DNA of 23,508 nt from a virus, in the IMG/VR virus record IMGVR_UViG_3300035698_011096, positions 1 through 23,508 of that record, one strand, 5' to 3'. Shown one piece after another: positions 398 to 23,268 of the stretch (the stretch's first letter is position 1; every line of letters begins with the position of its first letter). The position numbers and the translations under genes are program-made. The notes beneath the pieces are model-generated. The model did not search any database and was not told the origin of the DNA. It saw only the letters and a list, made by a program, of their open reading frames with translations.

Positions 398-850
398 TTA
401 TTCCAAATCTTTTCTGAAGAATTTACCCATGAGATTTTCATTAAGCGAATGTTTATCAGCAAGAACATCGTGAGCGAATTGTTCTTGTAGTTCATAGTAG
501 GTTAAAGATTTTTTACCTGAACAAAATCTAAGTATCTCTAATTTGGTAGTTTCACTATTCCAATACTTAACTACATCATTGGAAGAACGATATGTTAACC
601 AATCAGATTCTTTGGTTACCCATTCCCAATGTTTTATTCGTTTATCGGTTAGAGCAGCAATTTCTTTTTTTCCGAATTTTCTTTTTCGAACCGATATTAC
701 TTGTTTTTTACCAATATAAAATTCTTTGGTACTTGTGTTAGTAATTTTGTAAATAAACCCAAAACAATTTTCGGGCATATCTGATAATTCTGTTATTATT
801 TGACCTTTATATATCCATGTCATAGTTAAAAAATTTGAAATCATTTTCAT
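398..850 (-). CDS. SegE-like GIY-YIG endonuclease
   Basis: A 150-residue protein resembling the SegE-like branch of the GIY-YIG nucleases. GFIYKI (residues 31-36) and YIGKK (45-49) stand for the GIY and YIG motifs, and there are basic residues around 55-61. A YYELQEQF segment (118-125) could supply the catalytic Glu, and the C-terminal NENLMGKFFR (137-146) resembles the conserved Asn-containing end. Related phage proteins are free-standing homing-type or DNA-degrading nucleases; which applies here cannot be told. The start is uncertain. The ATG at 850 overlaps the sulfotransferase by 44 bases. Met3 (844) has the better-spaced AGAGG upstream. Met10 (823, MTWIYKG) would reduce the overlap to 17 bases. 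The gene sits between a sulfotransferase and the primase, a typical position for a mobile free-standing nuclease. Confidence 0.75.
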   Translation of the reverse strand: MKMISNFLTMTWIYKGQIITELSDMPENCFGFIYKITNTSTKEFYIGKKQVISVRKRKFGKKEIAALTDKRIKHWEWVTKESDWLTYRSSNDVVKYWNSETTKLEILRFCSGKKSLTYYELQEQFAHDVLADKHSLNENLMGKFFRKDLE

Positions 851-1370
851 ACCTCTCTCGAACCCAATCCTTCATCCATTCTTCGGTATACATATATTTG
901 TAATACCTTTGTTGGTTTAATTCAGGATGTTTATCATAAAGTGGATTTCGATTTAAGTGCGGAATTGGAGATTGAACTCCAATTTGTGTAAAGATGTTAG
1001 TTACATCTTCTTTAAAGTTTTCGTATCTACCGATAAAAGATACTTCAACATTTCCCGCGTTAATATAGTAACTTTGGGGTAATAGAACTAAATCTAAATT
1101 ATTTGATTTTTTTAAAAACGTTCCAAAATCATAATCAGTTCTTCCTTTTCTCCGTTCGTGTAAAAATGCAGATGTTAATCTTGTAAAAGGATTTCTAACC
1201 ATAGTATAAATTTTATAGTTAGGAAATTTCTGAAATACACGAATAGAATCATGCACCATTGGAGAGGTTGTATTTTCTATATTTTGTAATACACTTGATA
1301 TAGAAGTACCACCTGTCTTAGGTATATGAATAAATCCCCATTTATTAGAATGATTGATGATTACACTCAA
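807..1370 (-). CDS. Sulfotransferase family protein (PAPS-dependent)
   Basis: A 187-residue protein with both nucleotide-binding signatures of the Sulfotransfer_2 type. FIHIPKTGGTS (residues 13-23) is the 5'-phosphosulfate-binding loop and VRNPFTRLTSAF (58-69) is the 3'-phosphate-binding element. IGRYENFKEDV (113-123) matches the conserved later segment. H40 in the MVHDS stretch is a candidate catalytic base. Such enzymes move sulfate from PAPS to a hydroxyl or amine, usually on carbohydrate; the acceptor here is unknown. The start must be TTG at 1370-1368: an in-frame TAA lies two codons upstream, and the next Met (residue 38) would remove the phosphosulfate loop. The protein is short for the family but has both binding ends. 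It follows the 60-residue gene by 11 bases and overlaps the nuclease gene, so it is probably co-transcribed from the box at 1587-1596. It is an auxiliary gene rather than a virion gene. Confidence 0.85.
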   Translation of the reverse strand: MSVIINHSNKWGFIHIPKTGGTSISSVLQNIENTTSPMVHDSIRVFQKFPNYKIYTMVRNPFTRLTSAFLHERRKGRTDYDFGTFLKKSNNLDLVLLPQSYYINAGNVEVSFIGRYENFKEDVTNIFTQIGVQSPIPHLNRNPLYDKHPELNQQRYYKYMYTEEWMKDWVRERYENDFKFFNYDMDI

Positions 1371-16958: not shown

Positions 16959-18296
16959 TTATACATAGTACAACTTAATACCTGGTTCGTATTTGCCTTT
17001 TAGCATTGTTAATTGTTTTTTTCTATTACCACCTCTTTTATGACTAATATGTAACCATATTGAATTACCATGTTCAAAAATGATTTGGTCAAATGCAATA
17101 TTTTGGACTATAAATTCAGTAACTGCTAAATAATCTTTTGGAGAAAATCCACTAAATTGTAAATCCACAGCCTCACCCTTTTCATGTTGTGATATTCTAC
17201 CACCGGGTAAAGAAGGGCCCCCTCTAAATGCAGAGTTAATTACCATATTGGGATATTTTTTGAGAATAGGTTCTAAGATATTTTCAGAAACTGCTTTTAA
17301 ATTACATATAATTTCATCTACACTCAAACCAACCTGTGCTTTTATTTTATGAGGGAACGTTGTTTTTATTGATAAATCTTTAACTTTAAAATTTGGTGAA
17401 ATTTGTGCATCATAATCAAGTCCAATACCACATTCAACTGCAACTCCATCACCTAATTTAGAAGTAACATTTATTTCAGTTGGATTATTTAGGGTTGGTA
17501 CCGATGGTGTCGGTATTGATTCTAATAATACTTTTTTTATTGTATTAATTTGAGAACCAGCATCCTCACCATCATCAGATAAAATTTCAACAGTACCCAA
17601 TAATTTAACAATTGCAGTTGCACCTTCTATGGTATTGTTATCCTCTGGAATAGAATCTAATAATTTTTGAACCTCACTTAATTCTTCAATTGGTGAAACT
17701 ACTAGAGTTGGTTTTGCTGGAGTTAATGTATAACCAGTTAATTGAACAAATCCAGGTAAGGGTGGTATAAGTGGGAATCCAAAATATAATGAGATAGTAG
17801 TACAACTAAATTGTATTGTTGTTAAATGTATTTGCGCGTACAAAATAAATAAATCTAAAAAGTTACCAGCAGAATCAGTTGGTTGTTCTGCGGGTGTTTC
17901 CGGCCATTTTCCTGGATTAGAAACTATACCACTTGTTAATGCTATATTTTGAAATGCAAGAAGAGGTGGAATCAATGGTGGTGTTTGTGCCAATTGAGCA
18001 CCGCCCCAATAACCAAGTACTGCCTGTCCTATATCTTTTAACCATTTATGTTTACCAGTTTCAGATTTGGTGAGTGCAATTGCACAGGCAGATATCATCA
18101 ACTTTTCCATTACTTCAGTATTGCCTTTAGCAAGAGGTAATGGTAATCCTAAAATTCCGCGTGTAGTAACACTACCGAGTTTCATTGCAGAATCATAAGC
18201 AGTGGTAAATTGTTTGGCAAAATCTTCTTTGGATTTAACTCCATTGGGATTATCCATATAGGATTTCATTATGGTTTTAAAGATATCCCAAGACAT
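16959..18296 (-). CDS. Tail-associated protein with C-terminal M15-type zinc peptidase
   Basis: A 445-residue two-part protein. The C-terminal part (about 325-430) carries the zinc-peptidase signature of the M15/hedgehog-DD-peptidase fold: SQHEKGEAVDL (residues 369-379, ligands H371 and D378) and WLHISH (414-419, third ligand H416), with E408 as candidate catalytic base. Such domains cut D-Ala-containing or other peptide links of peptidoglycan. The N-terminal part (1-190) is a separate domain with proline-rich hydrophobic turns (PPLIPPLLAF, FGFPLIPPLPGF) that may anchor it in the tail hub. Position directly after the spike gene (3-base gap) suggests a tail lysin that opens the cell wall during DNA entry. 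A lysis endolysin is less likely, because no holin-like gene is adjacent and the N-terminal domain looks structural. Confidence 0.8.
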   Translation of the reverse strand: MSWDIFKTIMKSYMDNPNGVKSKEDFAKQFTTAYDSAMKLGSVTTRGILGLPLPLAKGNTEVMEKLMISACAIALTKSETGKHKWLKDIGQAVLGYWGGAQLAQTPPLIPPLLAFQNIALTSGIVSNPGKWPETPAEQPTDSAGNFLDLFILYAQIHLTTIQFSCTTISLYFGFPLIPPLPGFVQLTGYTLTPAKPTLVVSPIEELSEVQKLLDSIPEDNNTIEGATAIVKLLGTVEILSDDGEDAGSQINTIKKVLLESIPTPSVPTLNNPTEINVTSKLGDGVAVECGIGLDYDAQISPNFKVKDLSIKTTFPHKIKAQVGLSVDEIICNLKAVSENILEPILKKYPNMVINSAFRGGPSLPGGRISQHEKGEAVDLQFSGFSPKDYLAVTEFIVQNIAFDQIIFEHGNSIWLHISHKRGGNRKKQLTMLKGKYEPGIKLYYV

Positions 18297-18299
18297 AAT

Positions 18300-19568
18300 T
18301 TATTCTGTGAAGTTTAGAGTAGATTTAATATCGTTTAATCTTGATTGTATTTCATCAAATTGAGATATATTAGTTGGTCCAACTGCCGATGGGCCTGCTG
18401 GAGTATTAAATACTTGTTTTTTTATCTCATCAATTAAATCATTTAAAACATCTACTAATTGTTGTCCTCTTACCAAAGGTTCGGTGGTTTCGGTAGTATT
18501 TAAAAGTATATTTCCATTACCAGTATCAATAAAAACATTTCCACTATTTCTATCAGTTGTAATATTAACATCACCACCAAAATCTAAATCTGCACCACCA
18601 CTACCATTATCGATTGTAAATTTACCATCAGAGATAAATCCATAATCTCCTTTAGAAAAGAATAACATCTTATCTGTTTTGGATGATATAGTAATACGAC
18701 CCGAGTTTATTAAAACTTGATCTAATCCATCGGGTTCATCAGTTTTGGCGTTAATTGGTTTGGTTTTAAAATCAGATGAACCACCATCATCAATAGTTCC
18801 AGGTAAGAAACCTAATTTATAATTGTTAGAAGATAATACGATAGTAGAACCATCTTTGTTTACATCTTCTTCAGTTAAAGACCTTTTTTTTAATTTTTCA
18901 ATAGATTCATCATTTTGTCTGTTTCGTATAATGATAGTTGGTGAAAATTCAGTATTATCTTTAGTTCCATTATTATATGCACTAAATCGAATAGATTGGC
19001 CAAAACGAGATTCTATTATCCTATCCCCTTCATATAATTTTAATTTATTTATTTGAGTAGGGTCAAAGTAATCACCAAGTAATTGTTTTCTATCGACTGG
19101 TTCATTTCCATCCGAAGATTTTTTTGGTATGGTTGTTTGGGATGATTCTGAATAATCTTTAGATTTACTTTCGGAGGGTTTTTCGGATTTACCAAATAAC
19201 GAAATATCAGCATCTTCTATTGCATTTCCTTTATTAATATCCGCAGAATGGATTCTATCATAAAATCGATTACTACCATCTTTTAATATTCTAACAGTTT
19301 CACCTTTTATGGGAATACCTACTGAATCATTAAATGGTTTTGCAATAGGAAATTGTTTGTTATTGGAAGTTAAATCTGTGGTTTCTCTTACAAAGATACA
19401 ACCAACCAAATCAGTATCTAATGATTCAACATCATCCGATACGTTTTCAAATTCAGCAATTCTTGGGTCGTTATCATCTAAAACTACATAATCTACAATA
19501 GCAGTAGTCCATTGGTTAGATAATCCAAACCTATTATTTTTTGATTGCGATTCTCTACTCCCTGCCAT
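18300..19568 (-). CDS. Baseplate central spike protein (gp5/VgrG-like), no lysozyme domain
   Basis: A 422-residue protein. Residues about 20-115 and 160-220 look like OB-fold material (VGIPIKGETVRILKDG; YEGDRIIESRFGQSIRFSAY), the part that sits on the hub in gp5-type spikes. Residues about 285-360 are short repeated beta-strands (DVNITTDRNSGNVFIDTG, then GNILLNTTE) as in the triple-stranded beta-helix needle. The end (365-422) is helical (EPLVRGQQLVDVLNDLIDEI). In T4, gp5 also has an internal lysozyme; no such domain is visible here, and the next gene encodes a peptidase that may replace it. The ATG lies 14 bases inside the previous gene. Confidence 0.8.
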   Translation of the reverse strand: MAGSRESQSKNNRFGLSNQWTTAIVDYVVLDDNDPRIAEFENVSDDVESLDTDLVGCIFVRETTDLTSNNKQFPIAKPFNDSVGIPIKGETVRILKDGSNRFYDRIHSADINKGNAIEDADISLFGKSEKPSESKSKDYSESSQTTIPKKSSDGNEPVDRKQLLGDYFDPTQINKLKLYEGDRIIESRFGQSIRFSAYNNGTKDNTEFSPTIIIRNRQNDESIEKLKKRSLTEEDVNKDGSTIVLSSNNYKLGFLPGTIDDGGSSDFKTKPINAKTDEPDGLDQVLINSGRITISSKTDKMLFFSKGDYGFISDGKFTIDNGSGGADLDFGGDVNITTDRNSGNVFIDTGNGNILLNTTETTEPLVRGQQLVDVLNDLIDEIKKQVFNTPAGPSAVGPTNISQFDEIQSRLNDIKSTLNFTE

Positions 19569-19980
19569 TTCCTTTACCTACTCTTTGTTTTAATTCTTCA
19601 ATCTCATTAGTAAGTGAATCAACTTTTAAATCTTGTTCATCTGCAACTTCATTGACAGTATCTTCTAATTGTTTTAAAAGTTGTTCTTTTTCAGTATCAG
19701 AAAGAAATCCAACATCCCCTTCTGCTTTTTGTGATGCACCGATGATTCGTTGTGCAATCGCAGCCATCTTAATTAAAGAATCATCGTTCCTTACTGATGA
19801 ATCAATTAAATCTTTTATAATAGGGCCCATAACTGCCATATCACCAGAATGACGAATAAGTTTTCTCATCTCTGCAATCAATTCAGATATCCTAAGTTTT
19901 TTGGTTTGTTGGTTATCGTAAATATCCTTAAACAAACCACCAAGGTTCTTTCCAGGAAATAATTCAAAATCTATACTCAT
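19555..19980 (-). CDS. Unknown helical protein, 141 aa, upstream of the spike gene
   Basis: A 141-residue protein of unrecognised family. It is predicted almost wholly helical: residues 20-85 form a compact helical region (ISELIAEMRKLIRHSGDMAV; LIKMAAIAQRIIGASQ), and residues 95-135 form an acidic coiled coil (LLKQLEDTVNEVADEQDL). It opens a three-gene unit with the spike and peptidase genes, behind a promoter box 22 bases upstream, and overlaps the spike gene by 14 bases. A tail-hub chaperone, hub component or packaging-related factor are all possible; nothing in the sequence decides. Confidence 0.65.
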   Translation of the reverse strand: MSIDFELFPGKNLGGLFKDIYDNQQTKKLRISELIAEMRKLIRHSGDMAVMGPIIKDLIDSSVRNDDSLIKMAAIAQRIIGASQKAEGDVGFLSDTEKEQLLKQLEDTVNEVADEQDLKVDSLTNEIEELKQRVGKGNGRE

Positions 19981-20069: not shown

Positions 20070-20381
20070 TTATTTATTATTGGATGCCAAACGTGTTTCT
20101 AAACGTTGTACCTTTCTTCGGAGTTGTTCCATCCTAATCTGATTATAAGTATATCGTTCTCCCTTAATTGGTTCTATCCAAACTAAAGTTCCCATATTAT
20201 ATTCAGCCTTCCCAAATTCAGATTTCCATATACCATCGGGTACATGTTTAGTTCCATTATAAACGAGTTTTCCTTTTTGGATACCATCATTTACTTTAAT
20301 TTTTTGTTTGATTACTTCCACCTCTTGTGAGAATGCAATTGTGGTGAAGATGAGAAGTAATAGTGTAGTAAGTTTTCTCAT
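20070..20381 (-). CDS. Small exported protein with flavobacterial-type signal peptide
   Basis: A 103-residue protein. The N-terminus MRKLTTLLLLIFTTIAFSQE has a basic start, a hydrophobic core and a likely cleavage after AFS, before QEVEV, the form common in Flavobacteriia. There is no lipobox Cys, so a periplasmic or secreted soluble protein is predicted. The mature part has a short beta-like region (GKLVYNGTKHVPDGIWKSEF), loosely reminiscent of YwqK/MORN-variant repeats, and a basic coiled-coil C-terminus (IRMEQLRRKVQRLETRL). I cannot name a function. The gene has its own promoter box with an AGAGG site and its own terminator, so it is a stand-alone unit inserted between conserved phage genes, like a moron. 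Exclusion of other phages, envelope alteration or help with lysis are possible roles; all are inference. Confidence 0.75.
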   Translation of the reverse strand: MRKLTTLLLLIFTTIAFSQEVEVIKQKIKVNDGIQKGKLVYNGTKHVPDGIWKSEFGKAEYNMGTLVWIEPIKGERYTYNQIRMEQLRRKVQRLETRLASNNK

Positions 20382-20449: not shown

Positions 20450-22156
20450 TTAAAATACTTTCTTCTTTACAATAAAATTACCAAGAACCAATGTATCCAT
20501 TTCACAATTTAAAAAAGTTTCAATTGCAGTTCGTGGGTCTAACACCATTGTCTGGTCTTTCAAGTTGAACGAAGTATTAAGAACCATTGGGTACCCATTA
20601 TCTACATTGAGTTGAGTAAGAAGTTTATACATTCTTCTGTGATGATTGTTAGATACTGATTGTATTCTTGCAGAACCATCAATGTGAGTAATTGCAGGTA
20701 AGTATTTTTGGTGTTCTTCTTTTACATGAACTACTTGATTCATATAAGGAACTATCTTATCGTAATCAAAGTATCGAGTTTGTTCTTCTAACTTTACCAT
20801 CGGAGCGAAAGGTCTGAACCCTTCTCTCTTTTTAATTACACGATTTACCCTTGCCTTCATTTGTGGGTCACATGGATTTGCAAGTATGGAACGATTACCC
20901 AATGCACGAGAACCAAATTCCATTGGTCCTTCAAACCAACCAATAACATTACCTTCAGTAATTTGTTTGGATATAATTGGTATAAGTTCGGAATCTATTT
21001 TGAATTGGTAATATACATCTTTTTTCATTGAGATTAAAACTTCTTCCATTTCTTCTTTTGAATAAGAAGGACCTAAGTAAGGATTAGTATTATCAATTCT
21101 TGGTGAAGTTGGATTTGTTCTATAAAAGTATTCTAAGGCACATCCAATGGCAGAACCAGCATCAGATGGTGCAGCAGGAATCCATAATTGTTTGTATAAA
21201 GATTTTTTTAGAATTTTTCCATTAGCAGTTCCATTGTAGGCACAACCACCGGATAAACATAAGTTAGTAGTTGAACGAGTAATATATAACTTATCAATCA
21301 AACGAAATAACAAAAACTCATATTGTTGTTGTAAAGTTGCTGCTAAATCTTTATGGTCTTGTGTAAGTTCTTCTTCCGGAAATCTATTTGGTAATTCTAA
21401 TAATGATGATAACTTCTCATTAAACATATGGTCATCCGACCAATCGTATGTAAAGTATTTCATATCTAATTCAAACCCACCATCGTTTGTAGTGGTGTAT
21501 AATTTCTCAAATCTTTTTTGAAATTTAGTTGAATTACCATAGGGTGCCAATCCCATTACCTTATACTCGCCTTCATTTGGTTTGAAACCAAGAAAGGCAG
21601 TAAAGGTGGAATACAACATACCCAATGAATGGGGGAAATTAATCGATTGTAGGGGGAATAATTTATTTCCTTCTCCATAGTATAGAGAAGTAGTTTCCCA
21701 CTCTCCTACACCATCTACTGAAAGAATAGATGCCTTTTGAAATGGGGAAGTATAGTATGAATACGCTACGTGAGATAAATGATGGTCACCATATTGAATA
21801 TCTACATAAGGATTTGTTATTTCCTTAATACAATTTTCTATCTCAGTAATTTTATCTTTGTTTCTTTTGATTATCTCTAATCTATTTTCCTTTTCAGATT
21901 TAGGTCCTCTCTTAGTAGATGTTTCAATTCTATCTAATTTAGTATGGGGGTTATCATAAAAAGTAACAACCTCAATTTCTCTACCATCAACATTGAATTT
22001 TTTAAATAACCAATTAATAGTATTTGTAGGAAATGATGAATCATGTTTTATACCTGTGAATCTTTCTTCTTCACAAGCTCCTAAAACTTTTCCATCTTTT
22101 AATAAAGTTGCTGCCGAATCGTGGTAACCACAACTAATTCCTAATATATAACTCAT
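20450..22156 (-). CDS. Carbamoyltransferase, NodU/CmcH/TobZ family
   Basis: A 568-residue protein, full length for the family. The N-terminal ASKHA-like part (1-345) carries HHLSH (125-129), the metal-binding His motif shared with Kae1/HypF-type enzymes, then VDGVGEWETTSLYY and EGEYKVMGLAPYG (195-207), and LSGGCAYNG (301-309). The C-terminal part (about 385-565) has GPMEFGSRALGNRS (410-423), FRPFAPMV (447-454) and LNTSFN (526-531), all signature segments. The enzyme uses carbamoyl phosphate and ATP to form a carbamoyl-adenylate and transfers the carbamoyl group to a hydroxyl. The acceptor cannot be read from the sequence: sugars in Nod factors and antibiotics are classical, and carbamoylation of 5-hydroxymethylcytosine has been reported for a virus-derived relative. 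It has its own promoter box 20 bases upstream, pointing to late expression. No active-site truncation is evident. Confidence 0.92.
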   Translation of the reverse strand: MSYILGISCGYHDSAATLLKDGKVLGACEEERFTGIKHDSSFPTNTINWLFKKFNVDGREIEVVTFYDNPHTKLDRIETSTKRGPKSEKENRLEIIKRNKDKITEIENCIKEITNPYVDIQYGDHHLSHVAYSYYTSPFQKASILSVDGVGEWETTSLYYGEGNKLFPLQSINFPHSLGMLYSTFTAFLGFKPNEGEYKVMGLAPYGNSTKFQKRFEKLYTTTNDGGFELDMKYFTYDWSDDHMFNEKLSSLLELPNRFPEEELTQDHKDLAATLQQQYEFLLFRLIDKLYITRSTTNLCLSGGCAYNGTANGKILKKSLYKQLWIPAAPSDAGSAIGCALEYFYRTNPTSPRIDNTNPYLGPSYSKEEMEEVLISMKKDVYYQFKIDSELIPIISKQITEGNVIGWFEGPMEFGSRALGNRSILANPCDPQMKARVNRVIKKREGFRPFAPMVKLEEQTRYFDYDKIVPYMNQVVHVKEEHQKYLPAITHIDGSARIQSVSNNHHRRMYKLLTQLNVDNGYPMVLNTSFNLKDQTMVLDPRTAIETFLNCEMDTLVLGNFIVKKKVF

Positions 22157-22176: not shown

Positions 22177-22186
22177 TATAAATATA
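22177..22186 (-). promoter_or_regulatory. Putative late promoter box TATATTTATA for the carbamoyltransferase gene
   Basis: An exact copy of the ten-base box, 20 bases before the ATG, in the 72-base gap after the sigma factor gene. No convincing ribosome binding site follows. Confidence 0.65.
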
Positions 22187-22228: not shown

Positions 22229-23005
22229 TTATAAAAACTCTTCATCAATATATGGATTTGAATCTACCATATCATCTTGAGTTGGTGCTTGCCAAAATTC
22301 TTTCTTTTTTGGTTCTCTAAATTCACCATACTCTAAATAATCATTTAACATTACCTTCTGATGTTTCTTCATCGTATTTACAACTTTGGTAATGTAATGA
22401 GTTTTACAATCTGTCATTTCTCTTACCAAAAGATAGAGGTGTTTCTTATTAAAGTTTTCAATATGTTCACTTCTACGAAATAATTCTAAGATTGCATCTG
22501 CAATTTGTAAATCTCTTTTTTTGGTAAAGATGGAATTTAAATTTCTATCCCAATACGAAATCATAATGTGTTTAAATTCTTTAAACTCACTTGCCTCATT
22601 TACATCATCAAAATCGTTTTCCGGATTCCAAGTTTCTGGCATTGTAGAAATTAATGCGTTTTGTTTCCATCTTTTGTAATTACCATTATTTGCAAGTATC
22701 AAATGATTCTTTGCGATAATAGTAAAGTAAGAGAACGCTCTACCTTTACCTTCTTGAAACATATGCATCTTTTCAACCATAGTAGAAACTACTTCGGTTT
22801 GCATATCTTTTTTAGGAACATCAAAATACTGAAACTTAAATGTATTAATTACATTCTCTGCAAGTTTTTCAAAAGGAAATTTAATTCTTTCTGAGTAAAT
22901 CTTTGAACGAGTTTCTGAACAATCACAATTGTTGTATTCAACTATTGCTTCTTGAGCGGGTGTACCAAAATATATTTTGGATTTTTTTCTTCTTGGTTTA
23001 GTCAT
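22229..23005 (-). CDS. 55: Late-transcription sigma factor, T4 gp55-like
   Basis: A 258-residue protein. KGRAFSYFTIIAKN (residues 87-100) is the region-2 helix seen in gp55-like phage sigma factors, followed by KRWK (111-114) and a helical second half (VREMTDCKTHYITKVVNTMK). The N-terminus is strongly basic (KPRRKKSK) and the C-terminus acidic, ending YIDEEFL, which could serve as the clamp-binding tail that in T4 gp55 contacts the gp45 sliding clamp. T4 gp55 is 185 residues, so this version is longer. It would direct host RNA polymerase to late promoters, a good match to the repeated TATATTTATA boxes. Its ATG overlaps the preceding stop as TAATG. No promoter box precedes it inside the window, as expected of a gene needed before late transcription. 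Confidence 0.82.
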   Translation of the reverse strand: MTKPRRKKSKIYFGTPAQEAIVEYNNCDCSETRSKIYSERIKFPFEKLAENVINTFKFQYFDVPKKDMQTEVVSTMVEKMHMFQEGKGRAFSYFTIIAKNHLILANNGNYKRWKQNALISTMPETWNPENDFDDVNEASEFKEFKHIMISYWDRNLNSIFTKKRDLQIADAILELFRRSEHIENFNKKHLYLLVREMTDCKTHYITKVVNTMKKHQKVMLNDYLEYGEFREPKKKEFWQAPTQDDMVDSNPYIDEEFL

Positions 23006-23268
23006 TAAATTTCTTCGTTTAAATCTTCTATTATTTTTTTAAGTTGTGAAAAGGTTTCACCAACTTCATCATCTTTTTCAAATGCTTGTTTTAAATCAAT
23101 TTCTCTCATATTGTTTAAAGAAATTTCTACCTTAGAACGAGTTTCATCTATGGTTGATATAACTCTATCTTCTAATTGTTCAATTTGTTTAAGTAGATTT
23201 CTGATAATAATGACTGATAGTACAACAAGTACAATTGATATGATTATCACACTATATAATGTATTCAT
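23005..23268 (-). CDS. Small membrane-anchored coiled-coil protein, 87 aa
   Basis: An 87-residue protein with one N-terminal transmembrane helix (about residues 4-24, YSVIIISIVLVVLSVIII) followed by a charged coiled coil (LLKQIEQLEDRVISTIDETR) and an acidic end. The basic residues just after the helix predict the tail in the cytoplasm. No family is recognised. It is coupled by a one-base overlap to the sigma factor gene, so the two are made together. A spanin- or holin-like role is possible from size alone but is not supported by motifs or by neighbouring lysis genes. Confidence 0.65.
   Translation of the reverse strand: MNTLYSVIIISIVLVVLSVIIIRNLLKQIEQLEDRVISTIDETRSKVEISLNNMREIDLKQAFEKDDEVGETFSQLKKIIEDLNEEI

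Follow-up and report, generated by a model that had tools for sequence, protein, structure and literature searches.

An intact O-carbamoyltransferase as a core gene of uncultured T4-like phages, set apart from the hydroxymethylase-linked type and with a glycan sugar as favoured acceptor

In the family of the O-carbamoyltransferases (CTases), a YrdC-like domain uses carbamoyl phosphate and ATP to make carbamoyl-AMP, and an iron-bearing Kae1-like domain hands the carbamoyl group to a hydroxyl. The active site has been described for the antibiotic CTase GdmN, where H133, H137, D156 and D333 are the iron ligands and H27 is the general base (PMC9633730). A phage-derived CTase that acts on 5hmC is also known, and the genes of this type co-occur with ThyA-like genes having Asp177 and with a pyrophosphohydrolase (PMC8670742). 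The residues that discriminate the 5hmC type were given as W408, G421 and R423 in TobZ numbering, the replacements not being printed in the text of that report (PMC8670742).

The stretch of DNA analysed here (the window, 23,508 nt) is a 23.5-kb IMG/VR fragment of a phage genome. T4-like baseplate genes are present in it, and the phage setting is correct. The CTase is encoded by a single intact ORF with an ATG start and zero internal stops (Table 1). Its sequence covers both Pfam domains completely, namely Carbam_trans_N (E 1e-67, profile positions 2-346 of 346) and Carbam_trans_C (E 1e-61, positions 2-170 of 170), so that the Kae1-like and YrdC-like domains that define class III (the NodU/TobZ type) are both complete. 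Moreover, PHROG 1601 ('Nol-like carbamoyltransferase') matches over its full length (E 2e-111, 374 bits, positions 2-527 of 528). The best solved homologues are antibiotic O-carbamoyltransferases, with NovN (E 3e-84) and GdmN (E 1e-80) at the top (~34% identity) and TobZ next. GdmN has an extra C-terminal dimerisation domain, whereas the window CTase stops where that domain would start. Rhizobial NodU belongs to the same family and aligns over nearly the full length, but the score against the NodU profile NF041651 is far below the cut-off (139 versus 1000 bits), which rules out that the CTase is NodU proper.

Table 1. Features of the CTase locus and related elements in the window (positions in nt)
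Feature	Position	Strand	Remarks
Sulfotransferase (PF03567)	807..1370	-	kept in all 9 long clade records read
Conserved 141-aa protein	19555..19980	-	closes the CTase neighbourhood; can directly follow the sigma-like gene where the CTase is missing
103-aa protein, apparent signal peptide	20070..20381	-	downstream of the CTase; in part of the clade
O-carbamoyltransferase (CTase), 568 aa	20450..22156	-	Kae1-like N-terminal domain, residues 4-341; YrdC-like C-terminal domain, residues 397-565
TATATTTATA motif	22177..22186	-	putative late promoter element of the phage, ending 20 nt ahead of the CTase start codon (ATG)
Sigma-factor-like protein, 258 aa	22229..23005	-	directly upstream of the CTase; weak fold matches, mostly sigma factors; syntenic in 79/81
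Small membrane-type protein	23005..23268	-	upstream of the sigma-like gene; syntenic

The canonical active-site residues, carried by NovN and GdmN as well, are all in place. CTase residues H125, H129, D148 and D332 align with the four iron ligands of GdmN and H12 aligns with its general base, giving the His, His, Asp, Asp ligand set and the general-base His of the NodU/TobZ type. These five residues are unchanged in 23/23 rows of the window clade and in every other group of the comparison alignment, and they are also constant across 82 viral loci, gaps apart. Judged from its sequence, the CTase is an intact, canonical O-carbamoyltransferase and probably an active enzyme. The earlier note had proposed a NodU-type carbamoyltransferase in a phage, with intact signature motifs and probable activity, and the complete domains, the PHROG match, the baseplate genes and the invariant residues bear this out.

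A first scan of viral contigs together with a profile scan yielded 81 loci at ~62-95% identity, and 390 relatives overall. Of the 81 loci, 79 have the sigma-like gene directly upstream of the CTase, the remaining two contigs beginning at the CTase, and the gene for the 141-aa protein is found downstream, again in 79 of 81. A search seeded with the sigma-like gene recovered the CTase in 70 of the 80 nearest loci and ten more distant loci without it. A maximum-likelihood tree of 63 proteins recovers the window clade as a single clade (100/100). Considering this synteny and the presence in 70/80 loci, the CTase is a core gene specific to one large clade of uncultured T4-like phages, in which it occupies a fixed genome position; this kind of CTase is hence a core gene of an abundant phage clade. 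The PHROGs category of the family (moron, auxiliary metabolic gene and host takeover) and the ten CTase-free relatives would fit a metabolic gene carried as a passenger, without a conserved function in the phage cycle, but the constant position in both sets of loci and the invariance of the catalytic residues make this extremely improbable. The hosts of the clade are probably Bacteroidota, since the signal peptides end in FSQ or AQ and one 65% relative is located on a contig binned to Saprospiraceae. For the sigma-factor-like protein a family search gave no match, and the fold matches of its structure model (pLDDT 58.8) are weak and only suggestive. In three CTase-lacking loci (L381:4422-6097, L390:2171-3846 and L393:4009-5432) the CTase site holds, by eye, a PAS/histidine-kinase-like protein followed by a response-regulator-like protein, a two-component pair in the phage late region.

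An apparent late promoter had been noted ahead of the gene, and the motif behind it is real in the subclade of the window. More specifically, the coding strand has 7 copies of TATATTTATA and the other strand has 0, against 0.25 copies expected under a first-order Markov model. Each copy ends 15-25 nt ahead of a start codon (starts 1564, 2723, 4669, 16892, 19980, 20381 and, for the CTase, 22156, all on the minus strand), and the motif precedes the CTase in 7/7 members of the closest subclade. It includes the reverse complement of the T4 late promoter consensus TATAAATA; the consensus itself was not found on the coding strand of the window. Many members farther from the window have the CTase start at or within the end of the sigma-like gene, an arrangement that probably places it in the operon of that gene. 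The CTase would be made together with, or after, the phage sigma-like protein, i.e. late in infection.

The earlier note had left the acceptor between a DNA base and a glycan. For a comparison with the 5hmC type we used Acinetobacter phage Effie, together with six contigs found from the Effie CTase, as a positive control. The neighbours of the Effie CTase are a T4 gp42-like hydroxymethylase with Asp177, a MazG-like gene and a kinase-like gene, and the hydroxymethylase lies at most ~2 kb from the CTase in 6/6 of the derived contigs, whereas no hydroxymethylase is close to the window CTase. The Effie-type CTases are phage-borne and have the same domains, iron ligands and general base, but they are only 22-24% identical to the window CTase. 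In addition, the three discriminating positions are changed in the hydroxymethylase-linked CTases (W to V/L/I in 7/7, G to C in 6/7 and R to T in 7/7), in agreement with the positions reported in PMC8670742. The window clade shows none of these changes: W407, G420 and R422, matched to the TobZ numbers by motif spacing (W, +13 G, +15 R), are kept in 23/23 rows, as they are in NovN, GdmN and most bacterial rows. In the 63-protein tree the window CTase falls outside the hydroxymethylase-linked clade, both groups being recovered separately at 100/100. The branch to the Effie group measures 3.7 changes per column, and the tree tool flags long branches joining there, which leaves the exact placement of that group unsure and the clade status of each group unaffected. 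The biochemically tested enzyme of PMC8670742 is absent from the tree, and the equation of the Effie type with the 5hmC type rests on gene context and the three positions. On its residues and tree position, the window CTase is not of the hydroxymethylase-linked, DNA-carbamoylating type. Two kinds of phage CTase can thus be told apart by residues and gene neighbourhood, which provides a simple annotation rule for the numerous phage members of the family.

A role in DNA modification, in which the CTase would carbamoylate a 5-hydroxymethylpyrimidine supplied by a ThyA-like ORF of the replication module and thereby shield the phage DNA from host nucleases, was also followed through the genomes of the relatives. 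The thymidylate synthases close to the CTase in relatives do not qualify as hydroxymethylases: Asn177 is present in 27/27 of the ORFs read, His147 wherever the region is present, and none of the 27 has Asp177. By these residues they are canonical dTMP synthases. The lack of a hydroxymethylase in the 100-kb relatives was discarded as evidence, because the whole replication module is missing from those records; among the nine long records read, the module is found only in the 287-kb one. However, all three CTase-bearing records of 276-288 kb (G016, G041 and G066) contain, besides a canonical ThyA, a second ThyA-superfamily ORF of 232 aa with the catalytic Cys at the 146 position and Asp at the 177 position, where dTMP synthases have Asn177 (PF00303 28.6 bits in G066). 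This Asp-type ORF is part of a cassette adjoining the DNA polymerase, together with Asn-synthase, PLP-enzyme and methyltransferase-like ORFs. The phage of the window probably carries the ORF too, as relatives from G016 and G066 (L042 and L252) flank the window on different sides in the CTase tree.

The earlier note had held that a hydroxymethylase elsewhere in the genome would support the DNA role. Formally one is present in 3/3 long relatives, and the precedent of a phage-derived 5hmC carbamoyltransferase (PMC8670742) points the same way, but the finding does not discriminate. Three records of 169-221 kb have the Asp-type ORF but no CTase, the downstream gene coming immediately after the sigma-like gene at the vacant site; the Asp-type ORF is therefore independent of the CTase. 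Considering these relatives and the distance of 130-150 kb between the two genes, against ~2 kb in the Effie type, the hydroxymethylase-like ORF does not point to the CTase. Together with the separate clade and the unchanged W, G and R, this makes the DNA role unlikely. A special form of it, in which a sugar-type CTase was recruited separately from the Effie type and would act late, after replication, on 5-hydroxymethylpyrimidines of the Asp-type enzyme, would constitute a second origin of DNA carbamoylation; we regard this as very unlikely.

Several data were kept out of this comparison. The structure model of the Asp-type ORF (mean pLDDT 46.6) was left unused. The profile hm.hmm had been built with one clade ORF, which makes the scores for that ORF family circular; they were not counted, and PHROG and Pfam scores were used. 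DNA-polymerase contigs that lack the cassette could not be linked to CTase-bearing phages and were counted neither way. A TET/JBP search gave no match, and its controls gave none either. As an observation in its own right, the cassette at L123:6231-10510, also seen in L311 and L296 (276-288 kb phages), encodes a methyltransferase-like protein, the divergent Asp-type ThyA-like protein, an Asn-synthase with glutamine amidotransferase and a PLP-enzyme-like protein, and it may constitute an unknown pathway of DNA base modification that does not depend on the CTase.

The glycan part of the earlier proposal is favoured by context. Bacterial relatives (~41% identity) have a GT2 glycosyltransferase, methyltransferases, GDSL-type hydrolases and an SxtJ-like protein nearby. 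The PHROG 1601 CTases of cyanophages and pelagiphages share the two domains, the catalytic residues and the T4-like type of phage with the window CTase, but they are only ~29-34% identical to it and their genes occupy other genome positions, in several isolates within sugar clusters. In the Synechococcus phages Bellamy and S-SCSM1 the CTase is located within sugar-nucleotide and glycosyltransferase clusters and in Pelagibacter phage HTVC008M it is found beside a UDP-glucose/GDP-mannose dehydrogenase gene, whereas no clear sugar cluster surrounds it in P-SSM2, S-TIM4 and C48C1. The isolate CTases in sugar clusters are distant from the window CTase (~29-34% identity). In the window no glycosyltransferase or sugar-nucleotide gene adjoins the CTase, and the three long relatives have only 1-2 GT2-type matches each. 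Taken together, the conserved sulfotransferase, the glycan-type contexts of several relatives and the canonical active-site residues make a sugar hydroxyl the favoured acceptor.

The CTase may instead act on neither a glycan nor a DNA base but on a hydroxyl group of a tRNA, of a small molecule or of a protein of the virion or the host. Indeed, catalysis is uniform across this family, which also acts on non-sugar compounds, ansamycins for example (PMC9633730). The gene itself lies on the edge of the baseplate module and shares the TATATTTATA motif with structural genes. Nevertheless, no partner for such a modification was found nearby and the surroundings of the bacterial relatives are partly of the glycan type, which makes this alternative rather unlikely. 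We therefore favour, with moderate confidence, an active class III (NodU/TobZ/GdmN-type) CTase, passed on vertically as a core gene of an uncultured clade of T4-like phages with probable Bacteroidota hosts, that most likely acts on a glycan sugar hydroxyl. The YrdC-like domain would convert carbamoyl phosphate and ATP to carbamoyl-AMP, and the Kae1-like domain with its iron would pass the carbamoyl group to the acceptor, with H12 as general base; the sugar would most likely be part of a glycan on the surface of the infected cell or on the virion. If the glycan acceptor is correct, these phages would have carbamoylation, in addition to sulfation, as a conserved modification of sugars.

Some smaller features of these genomes deserve mention. 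An ORF for a SegE-like GIY-YIG endonuclease (window 398-850) shares 44 bases with the end of the sulfotransferase ORF. In the close relative L003 a sulfotransferase-like ORF was recognized by eye (L003:708-1217), and a radical SAM/SPASM protein and a SAM synthetase are likewise encoded upstream of its CTase. Finally, a baseplate-region protein has an endolysin-like C-terminal domain in the window (16959-18296) and a CHAP domain in L003 (L003:13867-15279), a domain swap between near relatives.
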